Shown: positions 47,570-52,957 of the stretch, piece by piece
How the letters are laid out: the number at the start of each line of letters is the position of its first letter
Numbering within the stretch: position 1 is the stretch's first letter
Assembly (NCBI GenBank): GCA_026982335.1
Contig: JALSHH010000047.1
Location: forward strand, 1 to 64,000
Reading direction: 5' to 3'
Length of the DNA: 64,000 nucleotides
Source: Phycisphaerales bacterium
GTDB lineage: Bacteria > Planctomycetota > Phycisphaerae > Phycisphaerales > UBA1924
Program-made: the position numbers and the translations under genes
The notes under the pieces: model-generated
Told to the model about the DNA's origin: nothing
The model's database searches: none
Seen by the model: only the letters and a program-made list of their open reading frames with translations

Positions 47570-48535
47570 TTATTTTGTTTTGTTGGCACTGGCCACACCT
47601 GATCCCGAACCCAGCTTCTTCATCTCTGTCAGCGCATCGCGCAGCGTATCGGTAAGCTCAGCTCCCGATGGAGGCACAATCCGTACTTTGGCGTAGAGAT
47701 CCCCCCGTTTTCCATCAGCAGAAGCCAATCCGTGTCCACCGATCCGGAATCGTGATTCGCTGGCGGTTCCCGGCGGGATGGTGAGCGTGACGACTTTGCC
47801 ATCGATTGTTGGCACCTCGACTTTGGCGCCAAGGGTTGCTTCTGCAATGCTCAAGGGCAATTCCACCGCGAGATCAAGCCCATCGTCAATGCGGGTAAAC
47901 CGTGGATCTTGCTCGATATGAATGACCACGAACAGGTCGCCGGGCTCACCGCCCTGATCAGCCATTGGACTGGGCATGCCCTGCCCGCGTAATCGGAGTT
48001 TACCTCCTGATTTAACGCCTTTGGGTATTTTGACCTCGATGGACTTGGGTCCGTTGCTGCTGGGTACTGAGATCCGCTTCCGTGCCCCGTGGTGAACATC
48101 CGAGAGGCTTACCCTGAGCCCCACACGGATATCTTGTCCACGCATGGGTCGGCGTGGGCGAGGCCGGGCCCCACCTCCGAAGTCGACTCCAAATCCGCCC
48201 CCCCCGCTGCCTCCAGCACGCGATCGTGCCCCCCCAAACATGGCATCGATAATCGATCCCAGATCGCCGAAATCGATATCCTGAGCGCTGGCATATTCGG
48301 CAGGACGCCCCGAGACGAATCGTTCATGTCCAAGTTGATCGTACTTGGCACGCTTCTCTGGATCCGAGAGCACCTCGTAGGCCTCGTTGAGTTCGGAAAA
48401 TTTCTTGCCCGCATCGGGGTCTTCGCTCACATCGGGATGCAGCTTGCGGGCCCGGTTGCGGAAAGCCTGTTTGATTTCGTCGGCGTCGGCCCCTTTGGGA
48501 ACGCCGAGCACTTGGTAATAATCTGATTGACTCAT
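47570..48535 (-). CDS. DnaJ-class co-chaperone (CbpA-like, without zinc-finger domain)
   Basis: DYYQVLGVPKGADADEIKQAFRNRARKLHPDVSEDPDAGKKFSELNEAYEVLSD (HPD), DnaJ_C region, no CxxCxGxG repeats. Confidence 0.92.
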   Translation of the reverse strand: MSQSDYYQVLGVPKGADADEIKQAFRNRARKLHPDVSEDPDAGKKFSELNEAYEVLSDPEKRAKYDQLGHERFVSGRPAEYASAQDIDFGDLGSIIDAMFGGARSRAGGSGGGGFGVDFGGGARPRPRRPMRGQDIRVGLRVSLSDVHHGARKRISVPSSNGPKSIEVKIPKGVKSGGKLRLRGQGMPSPMADQGGEPGDLFVVIHIEQDPRFTRIDDGLDLAVELPLSIAEATLGAKVEVPTIDGKVVTLTIPPGTASESRFRIGGHGLASADGKRGDLYAKVRIVPPSGAELTDTLRDALTEMKKLGSGSGVASANKTK

Positions 48536-48617: not shown

Positions 48618-48648
48618 TAGAAAACAAGCGACGCTTTGGCGTCGCTTG
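48618..48648 (-). terminator. Rho-independent terminator
   Basis: Minus strand CAAGCGACGC-CAAA-GCGTCGCTTGTTTTC. Confidence 0.78.
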
Positions 48649-48695
48649 TGCCATTTGAATACTACACATGCCCACAATCCCGAACACGCACGGGC

Positions 48696-49802
48696 TTAGT
48701 CGTGGTTATGCCCGGCGTGAGGATCAACCTCAGACGGACTTGGCTCTGAAGCTTCCTTGGCCTCCACATGGTCAATATGGGCCATGAAAACATTGAAGTA
48801 GAGCATGGCATTTGACGGAATATTGGCCCGTGGATTGCCCCGCTCGCCATAGGCAAGATAGCCGGGAATCAACAGCTTACGGCGATTCCCCATCGCAAAT
48901 CCTTCCATTCCAATCCCCCACCCAGTAATTGCGCGCGTCTCGGGTGGGAACTCAAAGACGAATGGCTGATTGCGGGCGTAGCTCGAATCGAACCGTGTGC
49001 CGTCATTGAGATATCCATCATAGTGAACATGAAGCTGATCCCCTTTGGTCGGGGTAATGCCGTTATCTCCGCCGTACTCGACGATGACCATGCCGTCATC
49101 GCGGCGGATCACCTGAGCATATGGATCGGTGCGCTCGAAGGTGATGACCGAATCTTCTTCTGAACCCCAAACGATATCACCCGAAGCATCAAATCCACGA
49201 TCAGCAACCGTCAGGGTATCGCCATCGAGTGTCACACTCGATGTCATTTCGACCGCTCCAGCGATCCCGGTCGGGTAGGGATATGGGGTTGCTCCGGTGA
49301 ATCCTGACGAGGTTGGTTCAAGCTCGACATCAAGTGTCGCGATCAGATCATCGTTTGACACCTGTGGAAAGAGCTCGGTCGCTGCCCACATGCCGGTGAA
49401 AACGCCTCTGGAAGATTCATCCATCGCAAACTCATAGGTCCGCAGGCGAATCTCACCTTTGTACCGGTAGAGCTGGAAGAAGGCCTGGCGATAGGGCTCC
49501 CAGGCCGCATTGGATCGTACACTCTCGACATAGAGGGTGTCGCTCATACCCTCGACGGGCGCAGGTGCTACAGTCATGGCGATGAACACATCCCCTTCGA
49601 CGGGCGTGGTGGACTTCCATGTGCCGCTGAGCTGTGACGCAATCTTGGCAATGCCATCATCTGACCAACTCGGGGCATAGGCCTCTGGAGCGGTATACAC
49701 CGGTGCTGGGTCAGAAGCCTGATCTTGCGCCTGAGCAACGCCGACACTCATCGAAGCACACATCATCACGCTGATTACACACGGGAAACATACTTTAAAC
49801 AT
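48696..49802 (-). CDS. Secreted CpeT/CpcT-like domain fused to FKBP-type peptidyl-prolyl isomerase
   Basis: Signal peptide; CpeT-like segments TLYVESVRSNAAWEPYRQAFFQLYRY and VTLDGDTLTVADRGFDASGDIVWGSEEDSVITFER; FKBP part GDQLHVHYDGYLNDGTRFDSSYARNQPFVFEF..GWGIGMEGFAMGNRRKLLIPGYLAYGERG; tail HAGHNHD. Confidence 0.82.
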   Translation of the reverse strand: MFKVCFPCVISVMMCASMSVGVAQAQDQASDPAPVYTAPEAYAPSWSDDGIAKIASQLSGTWKSTTPVEGDVFIAMTVAPAPVEGMSDTLYVESVRSNAAWEPYRQAFFQLYRYKGEIRLRTYEFAMDESSRGVFTGMWAATELFPQVSNDDLIATLDVELEPTSSGFTGATPYPYPTGIAGAVEMTSSVTLDGDTLTVADRGFDASGDIVWGSEEDSVITFERTDPYAQVIRRDDGMVIVEYGGDNGITPTKGDQLHVHYDGYLNDGTRFDSSYARNQPFVFEFPPETRAITGWGIGMEGFAMGNRRKLLIPGYLAYGERGNPRANIPSNAMLYFNVFMAHIDHVEAKEASEPSPSEVDPHAGHNHD

Positions 49803-50218: not shown

Positions 50219-50929
50219 ATGGACCAGCACACAAACCAACCCCCTGAGCCAACTGCGCATGATTCGCAATCGGACACGCTGCCGATCCCCAAAGACCACC
50301 GCCCGCCTGAACTGCTCTTTGAGCCCTATGAACCTCGTTCGGTCTCGACGATTGTTGCCCAGCAGCAAGCTTTGCGCGAATCCCAGGCAGCCGAGACCGC
50401 TGCAATTATCTTCGCAGGTGTTGATCAGCTCGAGCTTACCTTCCCCAAAGGGCAACAAGAAGATCGACCAGATTGCCAATCTGAGCATCCCGGGCACAAA
50501 CCTTTGTTCAATCGGCCACTCGATGAAACTTTCGAACCTATCCGCACTGAACACCTTTCACTTCGCCGTCGGCTTGTGACTCCTGGTGCCCAGTGCATCT
50601 ATTCGCTCATCACCATCACACTCATAGGCGGGCTCATGGGATTATCCGCCTCGATCAACTCGCCAGCCTTGATGCTCGCAGCGGAAATCATCTCCCCGAC
50701 CCTCTTGCCGATCTGCATCTGGAAATGGATCCGCTGGCTTGATTCGCGCCCCTACTACTACCGCCTGCTCACTTCACTCGACGAAGATGCGCGAAACCTG
50801 CTCAATCACCGCTTGCTTTGGAAACCAGCAACAAAAACTCATCGTTCTAAAAGTACTGCTCGCTTAAAACCAACATCCCGACCTCCTTGCTGGTACATAA
50901 ACAGCAATCAGTCACATTTGGCCGCGTGA
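50219..50929 (+). CDS. Hypothetical two-TM membrane protein, paralogue of 51300-51857
   Basis: Two hydrophobic segments then WKWIRWLDSRPYYYRLLTSLDEDARNLL, and a basic C-terminus. Shares a motif with the next gene. Confidence 0.7.
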   Translation: MDQHTNQPPEPTAHDSQSDTLPIPKDHRPPELLFEPYEPRSVSTIVAQQQALRESQAAETAAIIFAGVDQLELTFPKGQQEDRPDCQSEHPGHKPLFNRPLDETFEPIRTEHLSLRRRLVTPGAQCIYSLITITLIGGLMGLSASINSPALMLAAEIISPTLLPICIWKWIRWLDSRPYYYRLLTSLDEDARNLLNHRLLWKPATKTHRSKSTARLKPTSRPPCWYINSNQSHLAA

Positions 50930-51299: not shown

Positions 51300-51857
51300 A
51301 TGATGGAAAAAGGCGACCGACCCAAAAGACGAGAACTCTTGCCCGGTGTCGATCCATCGTGGGTCGAATCGGCACTGAGCCGTCCTGAAGATGAAGAACC
51401 CGAGGTTGAGTTTGACCCCGATGATCCGGATTCGGTCTGGATTCTGGGCAATGATCCCGAAGCCAAGATTTCGAGCGTCGCCGACCAACGCAACCTGATC
51501 CACAAGCAGATGCTCTCAGCTGGCGGGCAGTTTGTGCTCGGACTCTTCATGATGTTCATTGCAATCGGGATCACCATCATGGCGATCACGAACCCTATAA
51601 AGATGTACATCATCCCGGCAGCGATGATCACACCGATCAGCTTTTGGTATATGCGAGCCCGTTGGCGTCGTTGGCTTGGATCGGCGCCGTACTTCTATCG
51701 ACTGATGACTTCATTGGGCGAAGACGCAGAAAACATACTCATTGAGCGTGAAGAAAAACGCCGCCAGAAGTTTGTCAAAAAGGTCGGCGATCTATACGAG
51801 ATCAATACCAAGCCGAAGAAGAAGAAGAAGAAGAAGAAGAAGAAGAAGAAGCGATAA
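51300..51857 (+). CDS. Hypothetical two-TM membrane protein with C-terminal polylysine tail
   Basis: FVLGLFMMFIAIGITIMAI / IIPAAMITPISFWYM TM segments; RARWRRWLGSAPYFYRLMTSLGEDAENILIER; ends KP-K(12)-R. Confidence 0.75.
   Translation: MMEKGDRPKRRELLPGVDPSWVESALSRPEDEEPEVEFDPDDPDSVWILGNDPEAKISSVADQRNLIHKQMLSAGGQFVLGLFMMFIAIGITIMAITNPIKMYIIPAAMITPISFWYMRARWRRWLGSAPYFYRLMTSLGEDAENILIEREEKRRQKFVKKVGDLYEINTKPKKKKKKKKKKKKR
51816..51851 (+). repeat. (AAG)12 trinucleotide microsatellite inside a coding region
   Basis: Twelve consecutive AAG codons immediately before CGA TAA. Confidence 0.97.
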
Positions 51858-51991: not shown

Positions 51992-52957
51992 TCAAGCGAG
52001 TTCTGGGAATCGATCTTTGACGATCTTGACCAGATCCGCGACATGCGATGCGGATTCGTCGAAGAGTTTTTGCTCTTCTTCGGTGAGTTTGAATTCGACG
52101 ATCTTCTCGACACCGTCTTTGCCCAAGAGTGCGGGAACGCCGACGAACAGCCCCTTATGCCCAAACTGCCCGTCGAGGTATGCAGCCGATGGGATGACCC
52201 GTTTTTTATCCTTGATGATCGCCTCGGCCATTTGGATGGTGCCCAGCGCTGGCGCGTAATAGGCACTGGTTCCCATGAGTTTGACGATCTCGCCGCCACC
52301 GACTTTGGCCCGATCGACGCAGGCGGTGATTTTTTCTTCGGACATCATGTCGGTGACGGGGATGCCGTGGACACTCGTCAGGCGTGGGAAGGGGACCATG
52401 TCATCGCCATGCCCACCTAGGAGCATCGCCTGAACATCTTCGACGCTCACGCCAAGCTCCCAAGCGATAAAGGCACGGTACCGGGCGCAGTCGAGTGCGC
52501 CAGCCTGTCCAACAATGCGATTGCTCGGGAACCCGGTGGCCTTCCATGCGGTGTAGACCATCGCATCGAGTGGATTGGACACGAGGATGACAATCGAGTT
52601 GGGGGCGTGCTTCTTGATGTTCTCGGAGACGGATTTGACAATCTTGACATTGGTTTCGATCAGATCATCGCGGCTCATACCCGGCTTACGCGGGATGCCG
52701 GCAGTGACGATCACCACATCGGAATCGGCGATATCTTCGTAATCAAAGGTGCCCGTGAGTGTGCAATCAAACCCTTCGATCGGGGCGCAACACCCGAGAT
52801 CAATCATCTTGCCCTTGGGCATGTGCTGATCGGGTGCATCTGGGCGAGGGATGTCGAGGAGAACGATGTCGCCGAGTTCTTTTTGGGCAGCCCAGTGGGC
52901 GCAGGTTGCGCCGACATTACCAGCACCGATGATGGAGATCTTTGCACGCTTTGGCAT
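51992..52957 (-). CDS. mdh: Malate dehydrogenase (lactate/malate dehydrogenase family)
   Basis: AKISIIGAGNVGATCAHWAAQKELGDIVLLDI, VTAGIPRKPGMSRDDLIETN, ILVSNPLDAMVY, LLGGHGDDMVPF. AAAGGACC Shine-Dalgarno. Confidence 0.95.
   Translation of the reverse strand: MPKRAKISIIGAGNVGATCAHWAAQKELGDIVLLDIPRPDAPDQHMPKGKMIDLGCCAPIEGFDCTLTGTFDYEDIADSDVVIVTAGIPRKPGMSRDDLIETNVKIVKSVSENIKKHAPNSIVILVSNPLDAMVYTAWKATGFPSNRIVGQAGALDCARYRAFIAWELGVSVEDVQAMLLGGHGDDMVPFPRLTSVHGIPVTDMMSEEKITACVDRAKVGGGEIVKLMGTSAYYAPALGTIQMAEAIIKDKKRVIPSAAYLDGQFGHKGLFVGVPALLGKDGVEKIVEFKLTEEEQKLFDESASHVADLVKIVKDRFPELA

Follow-up and report, generated by a model that had tools for sequence, protein, structure and literature searches.

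A CpeT/CpcT-type barrel joined to an FKBP-type prolyl isomerase domain in one family of Phycisphaerales

Introduction

The T-type bilin lyases CpcT and CpeT (PF06206; 4O4O and 4O4S) have been studied as structures, and 4O4S is CpcT with phycocyanobilin. Y65 and D163 of CpcT are taken to be catalytic. FKBP domains form the C-terminal part of exported isomerases of the FkpA, Mip and BamJ type, which also share a signal peptide and an accessory N-terminal part. In the exported isomerases FkpA, Mip and SurA, client binding or dimerisation is the task of a separate domain, and the N-terminal domains of FkpA and Mip are helical. Plant members of the CpeT family have been described with functions other than those of lyases (PMC2408579). 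One non-phycobilisome member of the fold, Arabidopsis CRUMPLED LEAF (CRL, 6LIX), is a plastid outer-envelope protein, and the transport of division proteins into chloroplasts is reportedly regulated at the envelope membrane by a TIC236-CRL module (PMC11377289).

Here, we analyse a 64-kb stretch of DNA from a Phycisphaerales bacterium (the window) that encodes a CpeT-type domain and an FKBP domain in a single gene. Both halves belong to known families, and their union in a family-wide and apparently exported protein is a new combination of known folds. A literature search limited to openly licensed papers found no paper on the fusion; an earlier database record of the architecture is quite possible.

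Results

The first-pass annotation of this DNA had proposed a secreted CpeT/CpcT-like domain fused to an FKBP prolyl isomerase. The two segments it quoted are present in the open reading frame, which starts with ATG and ends with TAA, as are the signal peptide and the HAGHNHD tail that it described (Table 1). Residues 74-218 match the Pfam CpeT model (PF06206; E=1.1e-16, score 61.7 bits, cut-off 21), residues 250-339 of the same frame match FKBP_C (PF00254; E=1.4e-22, 80.2 bits), and PHROGs independently gave a match to a 'CpeT-like antenna protein' (E=5.6e-8). Read by eye, the N terminus is a hydrophobic Sec-type signal peptide, MFKVCFPCVISVMMCASMSVGVAQA, which ends in AQA and is followed by QDQ, and from this we infer that the protein is located outside the cytoplasm. 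The possibility that it is a lipoprotein was rejected, as it has no lipobox and a loose lipobox pattern occurs in only 5 of 50 fused homologues.

Table 1. Features of the CpeT-FKBP locus, in window coordinates
Feature	Position	Strand	Basis and remarks
DnaJ/CbpA-type co-chaperone neighbour	47570..48535	-	PF00226 and PF01556; adjacent in many genera, not all
Terminator-like hairpin 3' of the gene	48624..48649	-	11-pair stem, then T-rich tail; consensus match only
CpeT-FKBP gene	48696..49802	-	368 aa; PF06206 and PF00254; AlphaFold pLDDT 87; homologues
C-terminal tail, residues 346-368, ending HAGHNHD	48699..48767	-	Sequence; variable in homologues; fastest-changing part
FKBP domain, residues about 240-345, active site intact	48768..49085	-	PF00254; residue comparison with FKBP12
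CpeT/CpcT-type barrel domain, residues about 49-226	49125..49658	-	PF06206; similarity to stand-alone CpeT by profile and to CRL and CpcT by fold
Predicted signal peptide, residues 1-25, likely cleaved between AQA and QDQ	49728..49802	-	Read from sequence; similar hydrophobic N termini in homologues; low-confidence model segment
Malate dehydrogenase neighbour, upstream in conserved gene order	51992..52957	-	PF00056 and PF02866; synteny

Given an alignment of 28 full-length homologues, AlphaFold modelled the full protein with a mean pLDDT of 87 and a pTM of 0.81, and only residues 1-29 and the last five fell below 50. The folds matched by this model were FKBP structures, FkpA and Mip among them, and CRL. 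The CpeT domain predicted alone (mean pLDDT 75) had exactly four PDB fold matches with E<0.001, namely CRL (6lix, two chains) and CpcT (4o4s and 4o4o), with E values of 1e-7 to 2e-6; nitrobindin and fatty-acid-binding proteins followed as much weaker matches. Of the solved structures, CRL 6LIX was also the one that matched best by sequence profile (E=1.7e-6), and a profile-profile comparison of the fused domain with 21 stand-alone CpeT proteins gave a probability of 99.4 and E=1.7e-21 over 171 columns. Because of this last value, and because only CRL and CpcT lay below E=0.001, the CpeT match is more than chance. The window domain is thus a member of the CpeT/CpcT superfamily by sequence and by fold, and both the family match and the barrel on which the original proposal depended were found.

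The FKBP active site, whose inspection the annotation had recommended, is intact. Y26, F36, D37, I56, W59, Y82 and F99 of human FKBP12 are all identical in the window protein and are kept in 42-49 of 50 homologues, with altered sites in a few distant fused members (L029). By domain and active-site residues, this half is an FKBP-type prolyl isomerase, and isomerase activity is predicted from the same residues. The whole protein differs from described exported isomerases in its N-terminal domain, since those of the FkpA, Mip and BamJ type are not CpeT barrels; it scored 64 bits with the full-length NCBIfam model of the FkpA/Mip type (PRK10902; cut-off 215) and 50 bits with the BamJ model (cut-off 100). 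It also differs from SlyD-type FKBPs, as the tail holds three His and there is no flap insert relative to FKBP12. Compared with the closest relative, dN/dS was 0.059 for the CpeT domain and 0.018 for the FKBP domain, values that are rough because dS is near saturation, and both domains are under purifying selection. The tail had a dN of 0.185, against 0.055 and 0.023 for the other two parts.

The distribution of the fusion was determined in 301 sampled genomes of the order, 118 from the window's family and 183 from outside it. Counts used the full-length protein as query because it finds some divergent fused copies that escape the PF06206 profile (G022, G029, G065 and G066). The two-domain architecture, which the annotation had suggested seeking in relatives, proved to be a family trait: a single gene spans both domains in 96/118 genomes of the family and in 0/183 of the rest. 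Many of these genomes are incomplete drafts, which makes single absences weak but not this contrast. A class sample of 249 genomes contained the fusion in the window's family only, and CpeT matches outside that family in phylum samples look stand-alone. In a tree of 72 CpeT sequences, all fused ones lie on one side of a single branch (SH-aLRT 100, length 1.53), which is most simply explained by one fusion event with vertical descent thereafter. The fusion is genuine and old, and its retention as one gene across the family after a single origin argues that the two domains work together.

Stand-alone CpeT proteins are common in the order (L031-L060, L101-L116) and are mostly lipoproteins with a strict Cys pair and a CpcT-like core. 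Like the fusion, they belong to the CpeT family and are predicted to be exported, but they lack an FKBP domain, fall on the other side of the CpeT tree and have a lipobox in 33/46 cases as compared to 5/50 among fused proteins. One CpeT lipoprotein, at L051:1390-2529 (+), has a different C-terminal extension of ~150 residues; CpeT domains may therefore be fused to other partners too.

Pfam searches of the neighbouring genes identified an NfeD-like protein, a pilin, a sugar transferase, DnaJ and malate dehydrogenase, and three ORFs had no match. The order malate dehydrogenase, fusion, DnaJ, sugar transferase recurs in many genera. Several members of the window's genus lack DnaJ at that place, and in G166 (L123) the fusion is missing from a locus that otherwise keeps the usual order of malate dehydrogenase, DnaJ and sugar transferase, which suggests a clean loss of the CpeT-FKBP gene. 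An operon or functional coupling with DnaJ was rejected as strong evidence, given the terminator-like hairpin between the genes and the independent loss or retention of each. Malate dehydrogenase shared no neighbours in genomes of other families, and the search for an origin of the locus there was negative. Two mutually similar ORFs in the window, 50219-50929 (+) and 51300-51857 (+), have no Pfam match and share a 'PYYYRLLTSLDEDA'-like segment; they are oriented divergently to the fusion gene and are conserved within the window's genus, but were not seen in the family's other genera.

CpcT residues were mapped by alignment onto 50 fused homologues and 46 stand-alone relatives. The fused clade retains the family core that it shares with CpcT, made up of E (CpcT E54), PYR (64-66), DRG (163-165) and WG (175-176): E54 (window E93), P64 (P103) and D163 (D201) are kept in 50/50, R66 (R105) and W175 (W212) in 46/50, and Y65 (Y104) is Y in 29 and F in 17 of the 50. 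R68, in contrast, is replaced by A, S, T, V or G, and the C116 and C137 pair and, by alignment, R97 are lost, whereas R68 and both Cys are present in 46/46 stand-alone relatives. CRL likewise lacks the Cys pair; it differs from the fused proteins in keeping the second Arg (the R68 equivalent) and in having no FKBP domain. In their place the fused clade has P177-T178, which is invariant, and directly after it EMTS, which is nearly so; its N-terminal part is short and degenerate relative to the CpcT/CpeT lyases, and the window domain contains zero His and zero Cys.

Genomes were also searched for the bilin pathway. Ferredoxin-dependent bilin reductase (PF05996) was found in 0/61 genomes and the phycobilisome domain (PF00502) in 1/61, as one odd protein outside the window genome; a Synechococcus control was positive for both. 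None of the tested neighbours is a bilin or photosynthesis gene either, in line with the annotation's view that the gene lies outside a phycobilisome context. The window genome does encode a heme oxygenase. This enzyme was undetectable in 22/96 fusion-bearing genomes and showed no association with the fusion within the window's family (Fisher p=0.78). An order-wide association of CpeT with heme oxygenase (Fisher p=2.5e-6) was rejected as a sign of linkage to a bilin pathway, as it tracks the split between taxonomic families, and outside the window's family the enzyme is missing from 50/67 CpeT-bearing genomes. In G030, a 371-aa ORF at L081:6643-7758 (-) has a phycobilisome-globin match (PF00502; E=4.9e-7) and an apparent B12-binding C-terminal part. 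It directly adjoins a heme-oxygenase ORF (L081:6091-6633, -), is not near the CpeT-FKBP gene, and might encode a phycobiliprotein relative of the globin type with a sensory role.

The His-containing tail is loose and fast-evolving and is not a hallmark of the family. His/Asp/Gly-rich runs of the HEGHDH type and of very variable length occur in the window tail and at L018, L019, L026 and L095, and the HxGHxHD DNA pattern has only one other occurrence in the window genome.

Discussion

We put at roughly even the chances that this protein is an exported prolyl isomerase in which the CpeT-type barrel serves to bind either a segment of a client protein or a hydrophobic group. By analogy with FkpA, Mip and SurA and their separate domains, the protein would be exported by Sec, as its signal peptide predicts, the FKBP domain with its intact active site would catalyse prolyl cis-trans isomerisation, and the barrel, a presumably derived and non-lyase member of the T-type lyase fold, would act as a binding module that holds the client segment or hydrophobic group beside the isomerase. 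The seven intact FKBP12 residues, purifying selection, a single-origin fusion, the loss of lyase features and the lack of bilin reductase in the genomes searched count in favour of this role, as does, by analogy, the work of the CRL barrel at an envelope membrane. The DnaJ co-chaperone gene next door in many genera lends it weak support; DnaJ is cytoplasmic, lies beyond the terminator-like hairpin and is independent of the fusion, and this, together with the altered FKBP sites of a few distant members, speaks against it. So does the retained E, PYR, DRG and WG core, with which the barrel pocket might still accommodate a small molecule.

The barrel might instead bind a small hydrophobic molecule such as a lipid, a quinone or a heme breakdown product, in an exported carrier or sensor whose FKBP domain helps to contact or mature a partner. 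We regard this as possible but rather unlikely. The barrel is of the calyx type, with nitrobindin and fatty-acid-binding proteins among its weaker fold matches, and E93, R105, R119 and D201 are almost invariant, as in a pocket. Both CRL and CpcT share these core residues, however, which may simply hold the fold together, and the window domain offers no His or Cys for heme or a covalent bilin. The same lack, with the missing Cys pair and second Arg and the absence of association with heme oxygenase, goes against the linear tetrapyrrole that the annotation had named as one candidate ligand; a lipid or an unfolded protein, its other candidates, may be what the barrel binds. Its broader idea of a repurposed barrel fares better, given the lost lyase-associated residues and the absent bilin reductase.

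Bilin-lyase activity is itself unlikely because of the residue losses, the lack of a bilin reductase, the non-association with heme oxygenase and the export signal taken together; an outside bilin might still be bound. R68, C116, C137, a phycobiliprotein acceptor and a bilin reductase in the genome are what a functional T-type lyase would be expected to have. An active lyase or bilin-binding protein working on an exported acceptor would draw on the equivalents of Y65 and D163 and on biliverdin that the heme oxygenase of the window genome could supply, and it is very improbable in view of the losses in the fused clade, the near-complete absence of the phycobilisome domain, the fusion-bearing genomes without heme oxygenase and an export route that parts the protein from a cytoplasmic bilin pathway. 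A SlyD-type metal-binding or metal-handling role for the tail is somewhat less remote, though still improbable: HAGHNHD-like tails recur, one homologue (L018) has an H-, D- and G-rich run of ~35 residues, and a His-containing run sometimes sits just after the signal peptide (L026 and L095), but a stretch of 12 residues with at least four His occurs in only 11/50 homologues, several have no more than one, and the tail changes faster than the rest of the protein. That two adjacent genes fused by chance, with no function, is refuted by one reading frame across 96 genomes, a single clade and low dN/dS in both domains; nothing was found in favour of this explanation, and its likelihood is negligible.

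Beyond the role as an isomerase with a binding barrel, we tentatively propose, at somewhat less than even odds, that in one bacterial family, in parallel to plant CRL, a lyase-fold barrel came to serve an envelope chaperone-isomerase as its client-binding half. CpeT-family proteins are named chromophore lyases, yet 165/301 genomes sampled in this order carry a CpeT gene by the PF06206 profile, without a bilin reductase where this was checked, and 'bilin lyase' annotations should not be carried over into bacteria that have no phycobilisomes. That the CpeT fold is fused to a folding enzyme throughout one family gives a concrete clue to what it may do in these bacteria, and it provides an experimental handle, as binding by the barrel can be tested beside an easily measured enzyme. 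If the parallel with CRL is true, the use to which the CpeT fold is repeatedly put outside photosynthesis would be protein handling rather than pigment chemistry.
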